From: Epibacterium ulvae
GTDB lineage: Bacteria > Pseudomonadota > Alphaproteobacteria > Rhodobacterales > Rhodobacteraceae
Reading direction: 5' to 3'
DNA: 64,000 bases
Assembly: GCF_900102795.1 (NCBI RefSeq)
Contig: NZ_FMWG01000002.1
Coordinates: 248,001 to 312,000, forward strand
Part shown: one piece after another, positions 51,026 to 61,258 of the stretch
How positions within the stretch are numbered: position 1 is the stretch's first letter
How the letters are laid out: each line of letters begins with the position of its first letter
Notes under the pieces: model-generated
The model's input: the letters and a program-made list of their open reading frames with translations, nothing else
Told to the model about the DNA's origin: nothing
Databases searched by the model: none
Translations under genes and position numbers: made by a program

Positions 51026-51100
51026 AAGCAAACGGTCTTAACGTATTTTTCGGGAATTTTCTGCATTCTCAGTCTCAGCAAATTCGAGTCGGAGATGCGA

Positions 51101-51598
51101 ATGAGTATGGAAATGCCAATTGGCCAGAAGGACACTAAGGGGTTCATGACTGGCTACCTTGAAGCACTAGCATTGGTGGAGCGTCTGCACCGCCTCTTGT
51201 TGGATGTGATCAAGGATGAATTTGAACGCGTCGGCGTTCTTGAAATCAACGCAGTTCAGGCTCTCTTGTTGTTCAACATTGGAGACAATGAGGTGACAGC
51301 GGGTGAATTGAAGACCCGTGGCTACTATCAAGGTAGCAATGTCAGCTATAACCTGAAGAAGCTTGTGGAAATGGGCTATATGCACCATCAGCGATGCGAA
51401 ATTGATCGTCGCTCTGTGCGTGTGCGCCTGACAGCTAAAGGCCGTGAAATCCGTGATGTCGTGAACGAGTTGTTCTTGCGTCACGCCGAAGGTCTGGAAG
51501 CACGTGATGTCATCGGAAGCGAAGGCATTGCAGATATTACAGCGTCGCTAAAGCGCGTTGAGCGGTACTGGACAGATCAGATCCGCTATATCTACTAA
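51101..51598 (+). CDS. ldtR: MarR-family regulator LdtR
   Basis: A 165-residue winged-HTH regulator (NYNLKKLVEMGYMHHQRCEIDRRSVRVRLT-like wing, with GSNVSYNLKKLVEMGY as recognition helix). It closely resembles LdtR of alphaproteobacteria, which controls L,D-transpeptidase and stress genes in Liberibacter and Sinorhizobium. The ATG at 51101 is preferred over one at 51095 because the GGAG at 51091-51094 would abut the latter. A strong terminator lies 110 bp beyond. Confidence 0.88.
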   Translation: MSMEMPIGQKDTKGFMTGYLEALALVERLHRLLLDVIKDEFERVGVLEINAVQALLLFNIGDNEVTAGELKTRGYYQGSNVSYNLKKLVEMGYMHHQRCEIDRRSVRVRLTAKGREIRDVVNELFLRHAEGLEARDVIGSEGIADITASLKRVERYWTDQIRYIY

Positions 51599-53863: not shown

Positions 53864-54070
53864 ATGCCAACTGGCACCGTGAAATGGTTTAACACCACCA
53901 AAGGCTATGGCTTTATTGAACCTGAGGGCGGCGGCAAGGATGTGTTTGTGCACATTTCAGCGGTTGAGCGCTCGGGCCTGACTGGGCTATCCGATAATAT
54001 GAAGATTGATTATGAGCTGACCGAAGGTCGCGATGGCCGCCAGATGGCGGGTGATCTAAAGCCGCTGTGA
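53864..54070 (+). CDS. cspA: Cold-shock protein
   Basis: A 68-residue single cold-shock domain. Both RNA-binding motifs are intact (KGYGFI and VFVHIS). It acts as an RNA chaperone in the cytoplasm. A strong AAGGAG site precedes the ATG, and a perfect hairpin terminator follows. The 216-bp leader region, shared with the ArsC-like gene, may carry cold-responsive structure, but none was pinned down. Confidence 0.94.
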   Translation: MPTGTVKWFNTTKGYGFIEPEGGGKDVFVHISAVERSGLTGLSDNMKIDYELTEGRDGRQMAGDLKPL

Positions 54071-54094
54071 TAGCATAGTCGATTGTTGCGATAG

Positions 54095-54122
54095 TCGCTG
54101 CGCCTTTGTGGGGGCGCAGCGA
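54095..54122. terminator. Bidirectional terminator between cspA and folA
   Basis: A perfect 10-bp stem TCGCTGCGCC / GGCGCAGCGA with an 8-nt loop, followed by ATTTATGTTTT on the plus strand. It ends cspA and lies just beyond folA. Confidence 0.78.
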
Positions 54123-54144
54123 ATTTATGTTTTCTGATCGAAGT

Positions 54145-54627
54145 CTACTGGACGATGCGTTTGTATTCGATCAGTTCGCATTGCGGTGCATCTTTCCGCA
54201 GTGTCAGGGTGTTTGTAATGCTCCAGTTGTCTGCTGAGAAGTCGGGGAAAAAGGTATCGGGGTGTTCGACTTCGATTTTGACTTCTGTGACCATGAGGCG
54301 GTCTGCGATGGGGAGACATGCGCGATAGATACCTGCGCCGCCGATTGCGTAGATACGAAAATATCCCTGACTGCGCGCTGCTTCTAATGCGTCTTCCAGA
54401 GTTGCACACACGAGATCTGCGCAAGTCGGGTCAGATGATACCACGATATTTAAACGGTTTTTCAGCGGTTTGATCGGCAGACTTTCCCAGGTGTTGCGGC
54501 CCATAATAATAGCGCCGCCCAAGGTTTCGCGTTGAAAGGCCTTTAGGTCTTCTGGCGCGTGCCACGGGATCGTGTTGTCTTTGCCAATTGCGCCATTCTT
54601 GTCTCGTGCAGCAATCAATGTCAGCAT
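54145..54627 (-). CDS. folA: Dihydrofolate reductase
   Basis: A 160-residue enzyme. The start MLTLIAARDKNGAIGKDNTIPWHAPEDLKAF is typical, with the active-site Asp/Glu in PEDLKAF, the NADPH-binding GRNTWESLP and the AIGGAGIYRACL segment. It regenerates tetrahydrofolate, which ThyA consumes. It is separated from thyA by the ArsC-like and cspA genes. Single gene; 198 bp from the DoxX gene. Confidence 0.94.
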   Translation of the reverse strand: MLTLIAARDKNGAIGKDNTIPWHAPEDLKAFQRETLGGAIIMGRNTWESLPIKPLKNRLNIVVSSDPTCADLVCATLEDALEAARSQGYFRIYAIGGAGIYRACLPIADRLMVTEVKIEVEHPDTFFPDFSADNWSITNTLTLRKDAPQCELIEYKRIVQ

Positions 54628-54764
54628 ATATGCGCTTTCCCAATTTATTCTGTTGGTGATCTCTTTTTATCCCAACATCTGCTGTATGAATTTTACTGGG
54701 TGAAGTCAAAGTCAGGGATGGCATGTTGGTTGAGTTCGGATCTGAACTTTTCTTTACTTTGTGC

Positions 54765-54802
54765 ATAAAAAACGCCTGCCTGAGAATCCCCAAGCAGGCG
54801 TT
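54765..54802 (-). terminator. Intrinsic terminator after the bufferin-type operon
   Basis: Read on the minus strand, a perfect 9-bp stem AACGCCTGC / GCAGGCGTT with a 14-nt loop is followed by TTTTTA. It lies 24 bp beyond the doxX stop and marks the operon's end. Confidence 0.85.
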
Positions 54803-54825
54803 GATAGATCAATAAGGCTGATTTG

Positions 54826-55392
54826 TTAGGCGGTTACATCGCCTGCAACGCGTTTGCGCAACACTGTGTCAAGTGACACTGCACCACCGCCTTTGATTAC
54901 AAGATACACAAGCACAAAGACCCAGAAGAGACGTTGGTCAAGAATAACTGCATCGGGCAAACGGTCAAACATAACGCCAAGAGTTTTGGCATCCGTTGCA
55001 TGGTGGCCGTAGACATCCGTTAGAGATTGTACAACCACGAAACCGATCATACCTAGGGCGGAAATCCGTGTGGCCAGGCCTAGAACAAGCAGCAGAGGCA
55101 GAATAAATTCTGCATAGGTGCCAGCCATTACGACGGCCCAGTGGAACATGCCAAACTGGGACACGTCATAGCCTACGGCTTCCAGTTGCTTTGGGAAGAT
55201 CTGGCTGTATGCGCCGATCGAGGGAGAGAAGAGCCCAAGAATACCATCTCCAAGTTTGGTGAGGCCTGAGTTCCAGTAATACAGCAGTAGCGTTGAGGCA
55301 AAAACAAAGCGTGCCAAAAGAGGCATAACCCAATCGCCAGCTTTTTCAATCAGCCGAAATACTGCATCGTGAAGGGAGACAAGTGCGTTCAT
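54826..55392 (-). CDS. doxX: DoxX-family membrane protein of the bufferin operon
   Basis: A 188-residue inner-membrane protein with four helices (LLARFVFASTLLLYYW; FGMFHWAVVMAGTYAEFILPLLLVLGL; ISALGMIGFVVVQSLTD; LFWVFVLVYLVIKGG). DoxX proteins commonly accompany DUF692/DUF2063 genes, possibly passing electrons or handling redox steps. The ATG at 55392 has an AAGGATG site and lies 4 bp after the bufC stop. It is the last gene of the operon, followed by a strong terminator. The exact role is unknown. Confidence 0.88.
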   Translation of the reverse strand: MNALVSLHDAVFRLIEKAGDWVMPLLARFVFASTLLLYYWNSGLTKLGDGILGLFSPSIGAYSQIFPKQLEAVGYDVSQFGMFHWAVVMAGTYAEFILPLLLVLGLATRISALGMIGFVVVQSLTDVYGHHATDAKTLGVMFDRLPDAVILDQRLFWVFVLVYLVIKGGGAVSLDTVLRKRVAGDVTA

Positions 55393-55396
55393 GGTC

Positions 55397-56152
55397 TCAT
55401 CCTTTCCTGTCAAATTCAATAAATGCACCGCCTTGGAGGAGCATCGTGAGTGGAGTTGTGAGGTCGAAAGAAGGGGTGCTTTGTAGGGCTACCTCGAAGG
55501 CCGTGCCAAAGCTAGCGCCATTTTGCAGCGCGATAATCCAATCAGCAGCGCCTTGAGGGAGCAATTGCACAACAGGATCAAATTCCGGGCGCGTGATGAG
55601 CACATCTTGCGCGCCTGACGCAGGCTTGGGTGCGTCGTCTTCAGTGTTAAACCGCCAGATATCATAAATGGGCCAAGAGGATTTTATGACTGTGACGGCA
55701 GGAGCAATGCGTGCATGCAGCGCCATCAGATCTTCTGGTGCCAAGTCTGACAAAAATGCAGCATCAGCCATAGCTGTGTCCGCAGCGTGGTAGGCGCGGC
55801 GCATCTGCAATTCGAGCCGCGCAATATCGGGAAGGTATCCAAGATGTGCAAGCTGCGGCATTTGTGCAAGGAACGCTGGAAACTCTGCTCCATAGAACAT
55901 CATCAACGGTGATGTGGGTGGATGTGCACGCAGGAAAAGCCCTGCAAGACCATCCATATTCTGCGTGCCAAGCAATTTGGTAATGACTGGAAATGCTTGG
56001 TGCATTGCCTCTGTCAGGGATACGGCGACGTTATTGCGATAGACATTAAACCGACGACCGGCAGGGCGTTTGTTCCCATCAATCAGCCCCTCTGGAACGG
56101 GCTGTGCCGCATCCATCATTGCCCCGGTGAATAGGTTTTGCGGGACAGTCAT
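55397..56152 (-). CDS. bufC: DUF2063 protein, MNIO partner (BufC/HvfC)
   Basis: A 251-residue cytosolic protein. Its N-terminal half (RFNVYRNNVAVSLTEAMHQAFPVITKLLG; MMFYGAEFPAFLAQ; YLPDIARLELQMRRAYHAADT) matches the HvfC/BufC DUF2063 domain. This type of partner protein brings the precursor peptide to the DUF692 enzyme. It overlaps bufB by 4 bp (ATGA) and is 4 bp from doxX, so all three are tightly coupled. A RiPP-recognition role is inferred from studied family members. Confidence 0.9.
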   Translation of the reverse strand: MTVPQNLFTGAMMDAAQPVPEGLIDGNKRPAGRRFNVYRNNVAVSLTEAMHQAFPVITKLLGTQNMDGLAGLFLRAHPPTSPLMMFYGAEFPAFLAQMPQLAHLGYLPDIARLELQMRRAYHAADTAMADAAFLSDLAPEDLMALHARIAPAVTVIKSSWPIYDIWRFNTEDDAPKPASGAQDVLITRPEFDPVVQLLPQGAADWIIALQNGASFGTAFEVALQSTPSFDLTTPLTMLLQGGAFIEFDRKG

Positions 56153-57003
56153 GCGATCACCCGTTGCAAAGCATCATGAGCCCGTGCGGCTTCTGCTTCC
56201 AGAATGCTCCATTCTGGCACGTCTGTATCCCATTCAACCAGTGTAGGTTTGGGGCCTGAACGTTCCAGTGTGTGATCAAGTAAAGACCAAACCGGGTCTA
56301 CGACCTCACGGCCGTGGCTGTCGATGAGAAGAGGCGCACCATGATCATCAGTATCTTCATCGTGCCCGCCAAGATGAATTTCGCCGACTTTTTCAAGAGC
56401 AAAGGCATCGATATATTGTTGAGGTGAAAAACCAAGATTCGTTGCCGACACAAATACATTGTTCACATCAAGCAAAAGGCCGCAGCCTGTGCGCTTGCTG
56501 ACTTCTGCTAGAAACGCGGGTTCTTCCCAAGTGCTTTCTTCAAAAGCAAGATAGCTGGATGGGTTTTCGAGCAACATCGCGCGGCCAAGCGTATCTTGCA
56601 CCTGATTGATATGATCGCAAATCCGAGCAAGCGTTGCATCGGTATAGGGCAAAGGCAGAAGGTCGTTGTAGAAATGGCTTTCGTGGGTCGACCATGCCAG
56701 ATGTTCAGAAAAGCTTGCAGGATTGAGCCAGCTTACCAGATGTTTCAGTCGGGCCAGATGGTCTGCATCCAGCGGCGTTTCACCTCCAATGGAGAGGCCA
56801 ACACCATGCACAGAAATAGGAAAACGTTCTGCTAGATGGCGGAGCTGTGCCAGCGGACGGCCACCATCCCCCATATAGTTTTCAGCATGGATTTCGAGCC
56901 AGCGTACAGACCCTGAATTTTCGATAATATCCTGAAAATGTTGCGGCTTATAGCCGACGCCAGGAGAAGGTGGAAGGTGGTTGAAGTTTGTTTGGTCCAA
57001 CAT
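56149..57003 (-). CDS. bufB: DUF692 multinuclear iron oxidase (MNIO, BufB)
   Basis: A 284-residue TIM-barrel enzyme with all MNIO hallmarks: GVGYKPQHF, WLEIHAENYMG, SVHGVGLSIGG, SEHLAW, LENPSSYL, LLLDVNNVFVSATN, EIHLGGHDED and LVEWDTDVPEW, which supply the His, Asp, Glu and Asn ligands of the iron cluster. Such enzymes modify cysteines in precursor peptides; in bufferins they form thiooxazoles. The ATG at 57003 is chosen for its GGAGG site; an in-frame TTG 33 bases upstream is weaker. A hairpin separates it from the precursor gene. Confidence 0.93.
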   Translation of the reverse strand: MLDQTNFNHLPPSPGVGYKPQHFQDIIENSGSVRWLEIHAENYMGDGGRPLAQLRHLAERFPISVHGVGLSIGGETPLDADHLARLKHLVSWLNPASFSEHLAWSTHESHFYNDLLPLPYTDATLARICDHINQVQDTLGRAMLLENPSSYLAFEESTWEEPAFLAEVSKRTGCGLLLDVNNVFVSATNLGFSPQQYIDAFALEKVGEIHLGGHDEDTDDHGAPLLIDSHGREVVDPVWSLLDHTLERSGPKPTLVEWDTDVPEWSILEAEAARAHDALQRVIA

Positions 57004-57036
57004 CGGTGCCTCCGATCCAGTCTCTGTGGCAAGCAA

Positions 57037-57063
57037 TGGGGCGGACTGTTTAGATCCGCCCCA
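57037..57063 (-). terminator. Attenuator-like hairpin between bufA and bufB
   Basis: A perfect 9-bp stem TGGGGCGGA / TCCGCCCCA with a 9-nt loop in the 83-bp gap, followed on the minus strand by TTGCTTG, a poor T-run. It may let only part of the transcription pass into bufB, keeping precursor in excess over enzyme. Confidence 0.6.
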
Positions 57064-57086
57064 GCGCGAAAGTCTTTGATGCAGGC

Positions 57087-57392
57087 TTATGCAGGCAGGT
57101 CGCGTGTCTGCTCTTCCAGAGAGCCTTCACGTGGTGTGCCGTCTGCCATTGCAGGCAGTTCGATTGATGTGCAGGTGCCCGCGTCAACCAGTGTCCAGGC
57201 GTTGCCTTGGTAATCAACGGTTGAGGTGCCCGCGCAGGTGGTGCCGGGGCCGGCTGCGCAATCGTTCTGACCTGCCAGAGAAATGCCGTAGCATTTTTCT
57301 TTGGACTGTGCAGAAGCTGCACCGGTCAAAGTTGCGGTCATTGCGGCTGCGACTGCGCCAGCAACGGCGATAGATTTTGCTGTGTTCGACAT
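57087..57392 (-). CDS. bufA: DUF2282 bufferin-type RiPP precursor
   Basis: A 101-residue precursor: signal peptide to about residue 28 ([16 protein letters not shown]), then the DUF2282 core with four cysteines at 34, 45, 53 and 74. The segments [17 protein letters not shown] and [12 protein letters not shown] fit the bufferin class. Bufferins are modified by the MNIO in the cytoplasm, exported and bind copper in the periplasm. An acidic tail ([11 protein letters not shown]) follows. The ATG at 57392 has an AAAGGA site. It is the first gene of the operon. The copper role is inferred from Caulobacter work. Confidence 0.9.
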
Positions 57393-57483
57393 CTCAATGG
57401 TCCTTTCGGTAATACATGCGGTGTCGTGATGACATGGAAACACTAACCCGAAGTTTCACAGCATTGAAATCACGAGCTTGTGT

Positions 57484-57537
57484 GTCACGTCCGCGTCAAC
57501 ACCTGTGACGCATAATAGCTGCAAAGCCTGCGTGACG
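57484..57537. promoter_or_regulatory. GTGAC repeats upstream of bufA
   Basis: Three copies of GTGAC or its complement lie at 57484-57488, 57505-57509 and 57532-57536; the first two form an inverted pair 16 bp apart. They sit 90-145 bp before the bufA start and could be an operator. No known copper-sensor motif was recognised. Confidence 0.35.
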
Positions 57538-57561
57538 TTAGGAAAATTTCATGTCTCTACC

Positions 57562-57589
57562 AAAAAAACGGCCCCCGAAGGAGCCGTTT
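57562..57589 (-). terminator. Intrinsic terminator after thrS
   Basis: Minus-strand stem AAACGGCTCC / GGGGCCGTTT around a TTCG tetraloop (one mismatched or wobble pair), followed by TTTTTTT-like sequence. It lies 21 bp after the thrS stop. Confidence 0.85.
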
Positions 57590-57610
57590 GAAACAGTTGA
57601 TTACGAATTG

Positions 57611-59557
57611 TTACAAAAGATCTGGAGGTGTTGCCTCTACGGCAAGGGCTTTTGTTACATCTTCCAACGCCTGTACGCTGGTTTTCTTCTCGCCCAAGCG
57701 CCGCACTGATACGGTACGCTCTTCGACTTCCCGATGTCCGACAGCCAGAATGACCGGAACTTTGCCCAAGGAATGCTCTCGCACCTTGTAGTTGATCTTT
57801 TCGTTGCGGGTGTCGGCTTCGACACGAATGCCTGTAGCGCGTAGGGTGTTGACCACCTCATTCACATATTCATCTGCATCCGACGTGATCGAAGCCACAA
57901 CCACCTGACGCGGTGCCAGCCAGAACGGGAGCTTACCTGCATGTTCTTCGATCAAAATGCCGATGAAACGCTCAAACGAGCCTAGAACCGCGCGGTGCAA
58001 CATCACGGGGCGGTGTTTGTTGCCGTCTTGTCCGATATAGCTGGCATCCAAGCGTTCGGGCAGGTTTGCGTCCACCTGAATGGTACCACACTGCCAGGTT
58101 CGGCCGATCGCGTCGGTTAGGGTGAATTCAAGTTTGGGGCCATAAAAAGCGCCTTCGCCCTCGAGGATCTCATACTCATGACCGGCAGCCTTACAGGCTT
58201 CACCCAGTGCTTTTTCCATGTGATCCCAGGTTTCATCCGTGCCGATGCGCTTTTCAGGGCGGGTCGAGAGTTTGATCGTCCAGTCGTTAAAGCCCAGATC
58301 ACCGTAGATCTTTGACAGGAAGTCAATGAACTGGGCGGTCTCGGCTTCGATCTGCTCATCGGCGCAAAAGATGTGACCATCGTCCTGCGTAAAGCCGCGC
58401 ACGCGCATAATACCGTGCAGAGCGCCAGAGGGTTCATAGCGGGCGCAGGACCCAAATTCTGCCATGCGCAGCGGCAGATCGCGGTAGGATTTCAGGCCTT
58501 GATTGAACACTTGCACGTGGCAGGGGCAGTTCATGGGTTTCAGCGCGTTTACGGCTTTTTCTCGGGCATGGTCTTCGTCCACTTCGACGATGAACATGTT
58601 TTCCTGATACTTGTCCCAGTGGCCGGATTTTTCCCAAAGTTTGCGATCCACCACCTGCGGTGTATTTACCTCAACATAGCCGCCTTTGTCTTGTTGACGG
58701 CGGATGTAGTCTTGTAGGGTGGTGTAAATGCGCCAGCCGTTTGGGTGCCAGAATATCTGACCTGGGGCTTCTTCCTGCATGTGGAAAAGACCCATTTCCT
58801 TGCCGAGTTTGCGGTGATCCCGCTTTGCGGCTTCTTCCAGCATGTTGAGGTGCTGTTTCAGCTTTTCTTTGCCGCTGAAGGCCACGCCATAGATCCGTTG
58901 AAGCATGGCACGATCACTGTCACCGCGCCAATAGGCACCGGCGATGGACATCAGTTTAAAGGCATCGCCCGGAACCTGGCCAGTGTGCTGCAAATGCGGA
59001 CCGCGGCACAGGTCCTGCCAATCGCCGTGCCAATACATGCGCAAAGGTTCATCGCCGGGAATGCTCTCGATCAGCTCAACCTTATAAGGTTCGTTGTTAT
59101 CCGTGTAATACTGAACAGCGCGATCCCGATCCCAGATTTCGGTGGTGACCGCGTCACGCTTGTTGATGATCTCGCGCATCTTTTTTTCGATGGTGGCTAG
59201 ATCTTCAGGAGTAAAAGGTTCGGCGCGGTCAAAATCATAATACCATCCGTCTTTGATGACAGGACCGATGGTGACTTTGGTATCGGGCCAGATCTCTTGC
59301 ACGGCGCGGGCCATGATATGCGCAAGGTCGTGGCGGATCAGCTCATTTGCTTGATCTTCGTCCTTGAGCGTGTGAATGGCAACTGTGCTGTCCGCCTCAA
59401 TTGGCCATTGCAGGTCCCAGTGCGCACCATTTACGGTGGCTGAGATCGCTTTCTTTGCAAGAGATGTGGAAATATCTGCGGCCACTTGCGCGGCTGTTAC
59501 ACCTGCGTCAAAGCTGCGCGCGTTGCCATCGGGAAATGTGAGGGAAATCTGGGCCAT
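57611..59557 (-). CDS. thrS: Threonyl-tRNA synthetase
   Basis: A 648-residue class II synthetase with an N-terminal TGS domain (about 1-62), an editing/second additional domain ([26 protein letters not shown]), the catalytic core ([28 protein letters not shown], with the zinc-binding cysteine; [14 protein letters not shown]) and an anticodon-binding C-terminus. It charges tRNA-Thr and edits Ser-tRNA. It stands alone with a strong terminator, upstream of the bufferin-type operon on the same strand. Confidence 0.96.
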
Positions 59558-59875
59558 GTGCCTGGCTGCTCCTCGTCGTTTTGGCGCCTACAAAGCGCCC
59601 GGTTGCGGGTATGGTTCGCGGCCTTGATGACCAAATGCGCTGACAAGGTCAAGACGATAGAGCGCGTATGGTCTTTTTGGTGACGGTTTGATGTGCCCAC
59701 AAATGGAAAACAGGAGCGCGCGCTGGTTTTTCTGATCACTGCGATTTGAGGCAAAGGTGATTGGATTACCGCAACGTAAAACGTGATGCTGAGACATCGC
59801 TTGCTGTTGCAATGTGGCAGATCGCCTCTGTCTGTAGCGGTAAGTCAACATATGGTTTGGCGAAAGGACCCTTTG
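59558..59875. other. Divergent gap between thrS and the DUF3179 gene
   Basis: A 318-bp gap that must hold both promoters. A CCTTG ... CAAGG inverted pair is at about 59622-59648. No leader peptide, T-box or other recognisable RNA element was found. Confidence 0.4.
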
Positions 59876-61258
59876 ATGTTGCACCGTTTGAAATTGACCC
59901 GTTCTCTTTTGCTGGCCACGGTTGCTGCCATGCCATTGCTGATTGGCACACCAACATTTGCCCAAGAGGCGGGGGCTTTGCCGGATTACATTGTGAAAGA
60001 ATTTGGTAAACCGCCTGCAATTCCGACGGGCGGGTATTCACCAGAGCTAGAAGAAGCCTTTCAGGTGGCATTTGTCGACAGTGTTGCGCAGTCTTCTTGG
60101 GGACGTGATCAGACGGTTGCTTTAGAGCAGGTTGCGGCCTCGGGTGATCCCCGTCTGGCCTGGGTGATTGCGGACCTGATGCGGTTCGTTTCTGGTCCTG
60201 ATCTGTCGCGGCAATTGTCGGATGCGGCGGCAACCTTGCTGGACGTGAGATCCCCGCGCCGCAATCAGTGGGGCGTGATCACGGACCATCTCATTGCTTG
60301 GGATATTCCAGAGCCTCCCGGATATCTTGCCCTGAAGCGGGCTATTTTCACTCAAACTGTGCCGGGGTGGGATAAAATTTTTGTCGAAGGTGAAATCGAC
60401 TGGCGATTGGTCTCATGGGGGGGCGTTTTGATTGATGATCGTGCCTATGACACTACGGATGAGCGTTGCAATTGTATTCCAGCGGCTGACAACCCCGAAG
60501 TCACCAGCGCAGAAGAGGCAACCTGGCTTGATGATGACGATGTGGTGTTCGGGGTCGAGGTCAACGGAGAGTACCGTGCCTATCCCCGCCAGATCATGGA
60601 AGTCCGCGAGATGGTGAATGACACGCTGGGCGGACGTGATCTGGGTATTCCTTACTGTACGCTGTGCGGTGCGGCACAAGCCTATTTTACCGATGATGTC
60701 CCACGGGGGGTGAAACGGCCTGTTTTGCGCACATCGGGGCTGCTGATCCGGTCCAATAAGGTGATGTATGATATCACCAGTCATTCTGTTTTTGATACGT
60801 TTTTGGGTAAGGCTGTGACTGGGCCTCTGGCGAAGAAAGGGGTGACGCTGAAACAGGCAAGTGTTGTCACCACGACCTGGGCCGATTGGAAAGAGGCGCA
60901 CCCTGAGACGACGGTGCTTGCGGAAGAGCTGGCCTTGGGGCGGGATTTTGATTTCCGCAATGGTCGCGACGCCAATGGACCGATTTTCCCGGTGGGAGAT
61001 GTCGACCCGCGATTGTCTGTACATGAAGACGTGATTGGGGTGGTCACGGCATCTGGGCGTCCGGTTGCATTTCAGCGCAGCAAAGCGGTCGCGGCGCTGT
61101 CACGCGGGAAAGACATCACATTTGAAAATGTGCGCCTTGTTCTGGATGGCGGTGGCGTAAAAGCTGTGAGCACGGATGGTGCAAGTGTCGGAAGCCATCA
61201 GGCCTTTTGGTTCGCCTGGTCACAGTTCCATCCCAACACAGAACTGTGGTCCGGATGA
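59876..61258 (+). CDS. DUF3179-domain exported protein
   Basis: A 460-residue secreted protein: a signal peptide (LLLATVAAMPLLIGTPTFA), an N-terminal helical part, and DUF3179 from about residue 190 with EVNGEYRAYPRQIMEVREMVND, the CxxC-bearing IPYCTLCGAAQAY, and RPVLRTSGLLIRSNKVMYD. DUF3179 proteins lack a settled function; the cysteine pair suggests a redox or metal site. The ATG at 59876 has an AAAGGA site and begins the signal peptide. A terminator hairpin follows. Confidence 0.85.
   Translation: MLHRLKLTRSLLLATVAAMPLLIGTPTFAQEAGALPDYIVKEFGKPPAIPTGGYSPELEEAFQVAFVDSVAQSSWGRDQTVALEQVAASGDPRLAWVIADLMRFVSGPDLSRQLSDAAATLLDVRSPRRNQWGVITDHLIAWDIPEPPGYLALKRAIFTQTVPGWDKIFVEGEIDWRLVSWGGVLIDDRAYDTTDERCNCIPAADNPEVTSAEEATWLDDDDVVFGVEVNGEYRAYPRQIMEVREMVNDTLGGRDLGIPYCTLCGAAQAYFTDDVPRGVKRPVLRTSGLLIRSNKVMYDITSHSVFDTFLGKAVTGPLAKKGVTLKQASVVTTTWADWKEAHPETTVLAEELALGRDFDFRNGRDANGPIFPVGDVDPRLSVHEDVIGVVTASGRPVAFQRSKAVAALSRGKDITFENVRLVLDGGGVKAVSTDGASVGSHQAFWFAWSQFHPNTELWSG

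Follow-up and report, generated by a model that had tools for sequence, protein, structure and literature searches.

Introduction

Among the ribosomally synthesised and post-translationally modified peptides (RiPPs) which are matured by multinuclear non-haem iron-dependent oxidative enzymes (MNIOs), the bufferin Buf1 carries modified central cysteines while its first and last cysteine form a disulfide, and preliminary results point to the signal peptide being part of the recognition by BufBC (PMC12452194). Pairs of an MNIO and a PME type 1 partner protein (PME1) install 5-thiooxazoles at the expense of 4 Da each, and the resulting products bind copper (PMC13097082). In Caulobacter, copper induces the genes which encode the DUF2282, DUF692 and DoxX proteins, and a mutant in sigF is sensitive to copper (PMC8224329); the buf genes belong to the SigF regulon, whose genes respond to copper, chromate and cadmium (PMC8224329, PMC3511200). 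Here we analyse a four-gene operon, bufA-bufB-bufC-doxX, together with a conserved site upstream of it, in a stretch of 64,000 nucleotides from Epibacterium ulvae (contig NZ_FMWG01000002.1, positions 248,001 to 312,000), which is referred to as the window and to whose first base all coordinates relate.

DUF692 clusters in Phaeobacter and Paracoccus are mentioned in two papers. Within the open-access literature, subscription journals lying mostly outside, we found no study dealing with the control of bufferins in roseobacters and no description of the control site reported below. The operon itself is a further member of a large known class, to which the control site is the added part.

A Buf1-type bufferin operon

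The operon of the window is of the Buf1 bufferin type, a class which has already been described. BufB (284 residues; 56149..57003, minus strand) matches the Pfam family MbnB_TglH_ChrH (PF05114) with 351 bits (cut-off 25) and the NCBI equivalog NF050167, the MNIO bufferin maturase, with 380.8 bits (cut-off 310). It stays under the cut-offs of the NCBIfam models for HvfB (236 bits, cut-off 360), MbnB (60.6 bits, cut-off 325), ApyH and ChrH, and thus belongs, as is characteristic of Buf1, to the bufferin-maturase subfamily of MNIO enzymes. BufA (101 residues; 57087..57392, minus strand) matches DUF2282 (PF10048) with 88 bits (cut-off 22.4) over residues 31-79 and contains, again as in Buf1, four conserved cysteines (positions 34, 45, 53 and 74). 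Their columns are invariant among 27 aligned BufA sequences, comprising that of the window and 26 chosen for diversity from 79 readable named loci, and the four-cysteine core is present in all 109 loci of the family which were read. An earlier interpretation of this DNA, derived from its letters alone and called the sequence-only reading in the following, had proposed a bufferin-type RiPP operon with exactly these cysteines; the NF050167 score, the sub-threshold scores of the other MNIO models and the four-cysteine DUF2282 precursor support this proposal. Two other assignments were rejected: that of a methanobactin-type enzyme in view of the MbnB score, and that of an oxazolin/HvfA-type captophorin in view of the HvfB score and of the translation of BufA, which contains no EGKCG.

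The four open reading frames occupy positions 54826-57392 of the minus strand in the order given above, and here the sequence-only reading turned out to be accurate to the base, including the ATGA by which the bufB stop overlaps the bufC start (56149-56152) and the 4-bp spacing between bufC and doxX (55393-55396). BufA and bufB are separated by a gap of 83 bp. The order A-B-C, often with doxX behind it, is a further characteristic of Buf1 loci. Each of 80 named loci fetched by means of BufB contains matches to all four proteins, and 78 of the 80 larger family loci, those with enough flank, keep the order A-B-C-D on one strand; because of these two counts we do not regard the four-gene arrangement as a product of chance. 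Since terminator-like hairpins follow both the upstream gene thrS (57566..57589, minus strand) and doxX (54771..54802, minus strand, 14 pairs), the operon looks like a transcription unit of its own. The whole stretch contains three such hairpins compared to 3.4 in shuffled sequences and hence no excess, so that this argument rests on the placing of the hairpins.

BufC (251 residues; 55397..56152, minus strand) matches DUF2063 (PF09836) with 80.1 bits (cut-off 27.2) over residues 5-95. A search among PDB sequences yielded no match to BufC at an E-value of 0.1, the matches being structural only. The structure model, which has a predicted local distance difference test score (pLDDT) of 91.7, matches 8hci_A/8hi7_A (TglHI complex) and 3dee with a probability of 1.00, TM-scores of 0.49-0.64 and root-mean-square deviations of 6.6-7.4 (E-value 2e-07 for the TglHI chain; 8.4e-05 over 224 columns for 3dee). 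Judged by its length, the matched TglHI chain should be TglI; 3DEE is the gonococcal PME1 protein. Against the single RiPP recognition element (RRE) TbiB1 the model gave no significant match (E-value 3.4). As modelled, BufC, a partner protein of PME type 1, appears to consist of the DUF2063 domain and an RRE-like domain, the latter forming the C-terminal half, which is acidic (isoelectric point 4.3, charge -8). DoxX (188 residues; 54826..55392, minus strand) shows hydrophobic stretches and matches the DoxX family of membrane proteins (PF07681) with 32.6 bits (cut-off 23.6).

Bufferin operons are common in this lineage, and the description of the source as a Roseobacter-type genome was borne out. 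Of 18 genomes of the genus, 17 contain DUF2282, the exception being 67% complete; the corresponding counts are 140 of 198 for the family, to which each genus contributed one genome, and 100 of 289 for genomes drawn from the class. From the 140 family genomes 109 were read, 29 of them being those with the highest-scoring loci and the other 80 being taken from further down the ranking. All 109 loci contain bufB and 108 contain bufC, the single miss (L035) coinciding with a contig end, while 79 have thrS in front of the operon in the same orientation, in some cases with the space of another gene in between. We would like to note that in two loci, L045 (genome G024) and G117:C45, a second DUF2282 match lies within a few hundred bases of the first, so that tandem bufferin precursors are probable.

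Beyond its Pfam match, BufA ends in a conserved tail, RxGSLxxxxRDLP (residues 88-100; 57093..57131, minus strand), in which R88, G90, S91, L92, R97, D98 and P100 are invariant in all 27 aligned sequences. The strict pattern occurs in 91 of the 109 loci of the family; among the 18 failing loci six have SigF-type promoters, and several others keep RDLP behind a longer spacer. At the class level it is found in six of 29 loci. This tail could possibly participate in the recognition of BufA by BufC. The N-terminus of BufA, as judged by eye, consists of a basic start, a hydrophobic Ala/Val run and ASA in front of Gln29, and residues 1-28 (57309..57392, minus strand) are thus predicted to form a signal peptide cleaved after ASA; a helix at residues 4-22 appears in a predicted model of poor quality (pLDDT 58).

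BufB is the only MNIO match in the genome. Its nearest relative among PDB sequences is 3bww (E-value 2e-48), whose ERDF aligns with EWDT of BufB in such a way that Asp260 is placed opposite an Asp. On our reading of this alignment, from which FonB itself is absent, Asp260 would correspond via 3bww to Asp249 of FonB, the catalytic base of that enzyme (PMC13097082). Relatives of BufB are present on 354 plasmid records, 73 of them from Escherichia, and 341 of the 354 are below 60% identity. A search of viral contigs with BufB patterns revealed no copies, and none of the four operon proteins has a PHROG match. Beyond thrS, a DUF3179 protein (208 bits) is encoded at 59783-61258 on the plus strand.

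A conserved site upstream of bufA

Upstream of bufA the window contains a 39-nt motif, TNACR-N5-TGACG-N4-YGTGA-N2-CACR-N4-YGTGA, at 57470..57508 of the minus strand without any mismatch. The motif was obtained from column counts on 85 non-redundant upstream regions out of 114 loci with up to three mismatches. Allowing three mismatches, it matches the window once and does not occur in 100 shuffled versions of it. At the same threshold it is found once per genome, always at bufA, in all 17 near-complete genomes of the genus, although presence at bufA holds here by construction, as the motif was partly derived from these genomes, so that it is the absence elsewhere which is tested; this circumstance has to be counted against the interpretation given below. 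The genome of 67% completeness does not contain the motif, and the reversed-pattern control gave zero matches.

A shorter, 20-nt form of the motif, CGTGAnnCACGnnnnCGTGA, occurs with up to two mismatches within 180 nt in 100 of 124 loci, compared to none in 20 single-base shuffle sets. This upstream set comprises 79 named loci and 45 more; L102, whose bufA lies off the contig, and L047 were left out. Without mismatch the 20-nt form has ten places in the genus, all of them at bufA. Its placing suggests that the conserved motif, which looks like a protein-binding site, is a control site of the operon. In one branch of the genus (L005-L007 and L015) the two inner half-sites have changed together from GTGA..CAC to GTTA..AAC, the last half-site being retained.

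Between the motif and bufA we tentatively assign a -35-like hexamer, TTCAAT (57463..57468), by its position, and a -10-like hexamer, TAGTGT (57440..57445), by the [CT]TAnnnT spacing described below, both on the minus strand and both absent from the result of a consensus promoter scan. A housekeeping-type promoter is suggested by this position.

Promoter types across the family

The 20-nt motif, with up to two mismatches, is present in 63 of the 109 family loci, compared to 0.2 expected from dinucleotide shuffles. A SigF-type promoter (GTAAC-N16-18-CGWA) is present in 16, one of which has the motif too. Among the 76 thrS-linked loci without SigF promoter, 58 carry the motif and 18 do not, while 13 of the 16 SigF-promoter loci are not linked to thrS. 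Of the 62 loci which have the motif and no SigF promoter, 32 show a [CT]TAnnnT box 24-25 nt behind the motif; 2.2 would be expected according to single-base shuffles in which the box was accepted at 22-27 nt.

At 14 of the 16 SigF promoters a related palindrome, TCACG-N4-CGTGA (up to two mismatches), starts either 19-20 or 29-30 nt before the -35 element GTAAC and at no other distance between 14 and 59 nt, compared to a mean of 0.036 and a maximum of two in single-base shuffles; since the loci share ancestry and the distances were picked with the data in view, this control flatters the result. A step of ten bases amounts to about one helical turn, as needed by a protein which contacts RNA polymerase. 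In a quick BufB tree, in which 58 of 107 inner branches were drawn open, the SigF label needs six changes, two of them forced by well-supported branches, and the promoter type therefore appears to have switched repeatedly.

Search for a regulator

With respect to its control, the likeness to the Caulobacter bufferin which the sequence-only reading had put forward did not hold. The anti-sigma factor NrsF was found in none of the 18 genomes of the genus by a search in which the Caulobacter control was positive, and no SigF promoter of the type GTAAC-N16-18-CGWA is present within 250 nt upstream of bufA at the window's own locus (L002). A SigF/NrsF-controlled bufferin is on these two counts improbable. 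Within the family, NrsF is found in 29 of the 198 genomes at an E-value of 0.001, 28 of these matches lying above the cut-off.

The neighbourhood was surveyed by clustering the proteins of at least 90 residues encoded around the 80 named loci and inspecting the 45 largest clusters by eye. In 11 of the 80 loci (e.g. L061) an ArsR-like gene is located 3.5 kb upstream of bufA; five have a LysR-like gene 3.9 kb and five an Xre-like gene 6.6 kb downstream of it, all three genes having been named by eye. An LdtR-like MarR gene is found in 19 of the 80 loci at 6.6 kb downstream of bufA; its relative in the window, a MarR-family regulator close to the LdtR model (233.8 bits, cut-off 250), is located at 51095-51598 on the plus strand, about 6 kb from bufA. 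Of the 17 family loci which lack both thrS linkage and a SigF promoter, two which lack the 20-nt motif as well show, by eye, a TetR-like gene 0.6-1.3 kb upstream of bufA (L247) and a gene of an extracytoplasmic function (ECF) sigma factor 0.9-1.5 kb upstream of it (L291); neither gene recurs.

Proposed function and rival explanations

Taken together, we consider it highly probable that the window harbours a Buf1-type bufferin operon with a promoter of its own, which would serve to buffer periplasmic copper and be switched on by an unlinked protein binding to the motif. By analogy with the published relatives, BufC would present the BufA precursor to the iron enzyme BufB before the signal peptide is removed, and BufB would convert both central cysteines into 5-thiooxazoles, each with the loss of four hydrogens. 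The sites predicted in this way, from the Buf1 parallel and the invariance of the residues, are Cys45 and Cys53 (codons at 57234..57260, minus strand). BufA would then be exported by Sec and its signal peptide cut off after residue 28, leaving a product of 73 residues which, stabilised by a putative Cys34-Cys74 disulfide, would bind copper in the periplasm and protect the cell when copper is high; copper buffering via the two thiooxazoles is, on the same analogy, the likely function. DoxX would act as an accessory membrane protein. The SigF/NrsF pair which Caulobacter employs would probably have no part in transcription here. A DNA-binding protein whose gene lies at another place in the genome would bind at 57470-57508 beside the housekeeping-type promoter and turn the operon on, activation rather than repression being suggested by the place of the site upstream of the -35 region. 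As there is one full site per genome, we favour a narrow regulator. A further-reaching proposal can be made only tentatively, as we rate its chance somewhat below even: an undescribed, unlinked regulator with a single main target, whose palindromic site keeps its phase from SigF to housekeeping promoters, would constitute an older control layer shared by the bufferins of the Rhodobacteraceae, in which SigF is exchangeable.

A number of observations weigh against this interpretation. The 20-nt motif is missing, at up to two mismatches, from 46 of the 109 family loci, and 31 loci, 18 of them thrS-linked, have neither the motif nor a SigF promoter. The -10-like box is absent at the stated distance from 30 of the 62 motif loci, and a sigma-70 consensus scan of the window predicted no promoter at the proposed place and two elsewhere, compared to 2.4 expected. 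Moreover, the shuffle controls ignore the kinship among the loci. With up to one mismatch, the 20-nt form has 49 places in the 18 genomes of the genus, 13 at bufA and 36 elsewhere, with 16 found by the reversed control; among the places outside bufA, L157 falls, by eye, within the coding sequence of rpsD, and the same string is found in four more genomes. Among the 45 largest neighbour clusters of the 80 named loci there is no regulator-like gene adjoining the operon. The genome shows nine matches to sigma-factor region 2, counted without regard to subfamily, and another ECF factor may act at this operon. On the side of the proteins, BufA has no NCBIfam match and its structure model is too poor to be used, while BufC (45.5 bits, cut-off 142) and DoxX (24 bits, cut-off 80) remain below the cut-offs of the HvfC and HvfX models, respectively.

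As to the product, one might think of a methanobactin-like chalkophore which is secreted to acquire scarce copper, given that MNIO enzymes make methanobactins and that BufB does match the MbnB model weakly. This, however, we consider very improbable: the score is far from the MbnB cut-off, the partner is a DUF2063 protein and not MbnC, the precursor looks Sec-exported, and the published Buf1 genes are induced by an excess of copper (PMC8224329). A main role in buffering another metal or stress in the marine setting, be it gold, silver, chromate, mercury or oxidants, appears unlikely to us, yet less so than the chalkophore. Its plausibility derives from the response of the Caulobacter SigF genes to chromate and cadmium as well (PMC3511200), from the gig operons, which were named for gold, and from existing MerC fusions (PMC12452194), whereas the characterised thiooxazole peptides bind copper (PMC13097082) and no pointer to another metal was seen in the locus.

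With regard to control, the presence of thrS in front of the operon and in the same orientation (79 of the 109 loci) and the failure of the consensus scan to recover the proposed promoter would suit readthrough from thrS without any dedicated regulator, the motif being either a remnant or a conserved RNA element. The terminator-like hairpin behind thrS, the spacing of the motif to the -10-like box in 32 of 62 loci and the related palindrome at SigF promoters, 13 of 16 of which are not thrS-linked, speak against it, and we rate readthrough as decidedly unlikely. The RNA element in particular is not supported, since consensus folding of 25 hand-picked upstream regions resulted in seven pairs, -1.85 kcal/mol and one two-sided pair change, and since an Rfam scan of positions 54000-60000 returned a single match, below the gathering score, over the thrS terminator. 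Autoregulation of the operon through binding of BufC to the motif is hardly credible in our view. Pfam does describe DUF2063 as a putative DNA-binding domain, 3DEE was deposited as a putative transcription regulatory protein, and a single 39-nt place per genome is what would be expected of a regulator encoded in the operon; this remains only a weak rival because the RRE-like half of BufC is acidic, and, in addition, PME1 proteins have a demonstrated role as MNIO partners (PMC13097082) and the 20-nt motif, at up to two mismatches, is found in none of 28 readable class-level loci. Finally, the motif might be bound by RegA/PrrA or another global regulator instead of a dedicated one, which we likewise judge to be unlikely, though less remote than readthrough. 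RegA of Rhodobacter capsulatus binds copper and its footprint at ccoN (-74 to -52) has a similar position (PMC9147068), and the 36 places of the 20-nt form outside bufA exceed the 16 of the reversed control. The full motif, in contrast, occurs once per genome at up to three mismatches, a count which short degenerate sites elsewhere would escape.

With a dedicated, unlinked regulator as the favoured reading, the conserved, promoter-spaced site provides a handle for finding the missing sensor and makes the control of roseobacter bufferins testable. The frequency of bufferins in roseobacters bears on the handling of copper in coastal seas. In PMC3511200, PMC8224329 and PMC12452194 the control of bufferins rests on SigF and NrsF, yet within the family NrsF is far less frequent (29 of 198 genomes) than DUF2282 (140 of 198).

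Comparison with known systems

Buf1 of Caulobacter vibrioides (CC3254-CC3257, CCNA_03363-03366) resembles the operon of the window in that DUF2282, DUF692, DUF2063 and DoxX proteins are encoded in the same order (PMC3511200). It differs in the adjoining sigF-nrsF and in a SigF promoter of the sequence GTAACC-N16-CGAA (PMC3511200), whereas NrsF was not found in the genus of the window and another site is located upstream. The EGKCG captophorins fontiphorin, oxazolin (= HvfA) and gonophorin share the pair of MNIO and PME1, the thiooxazoles and the binding of copper (PMC13097082), the last two features being ascribed to the present system by analogy; their precursors, however, contain EGKCG repeats in place of DUF2282, and BufB of the window remains under the HvfB cut-off.

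Within the Rhodobacteraceae, buf loci with SigF promoters (e.g. L019-L022, L027, L033) have in common with the window that bufB and bufC follow bufA and that a palindrome, TCACG-N4-CGTGA, lies upstream of the promoter. They differ by this promoter itself (GTAAC-N16-18-CGWA), by the lack of thrS linkage in 13 of 16 and by the failure of six of 16 in the BufA tail pattern. The thrS-linked loci of Ruegeria, Leisingera, Phaeobacter and other roseobacters contain the same four genes, with BufB proteins which are 75-83% identical, and mostly the same upstream motif. It is this thrS-linked roseobacter group to which the operon of the window belongs, no difference of kind having been found between them.

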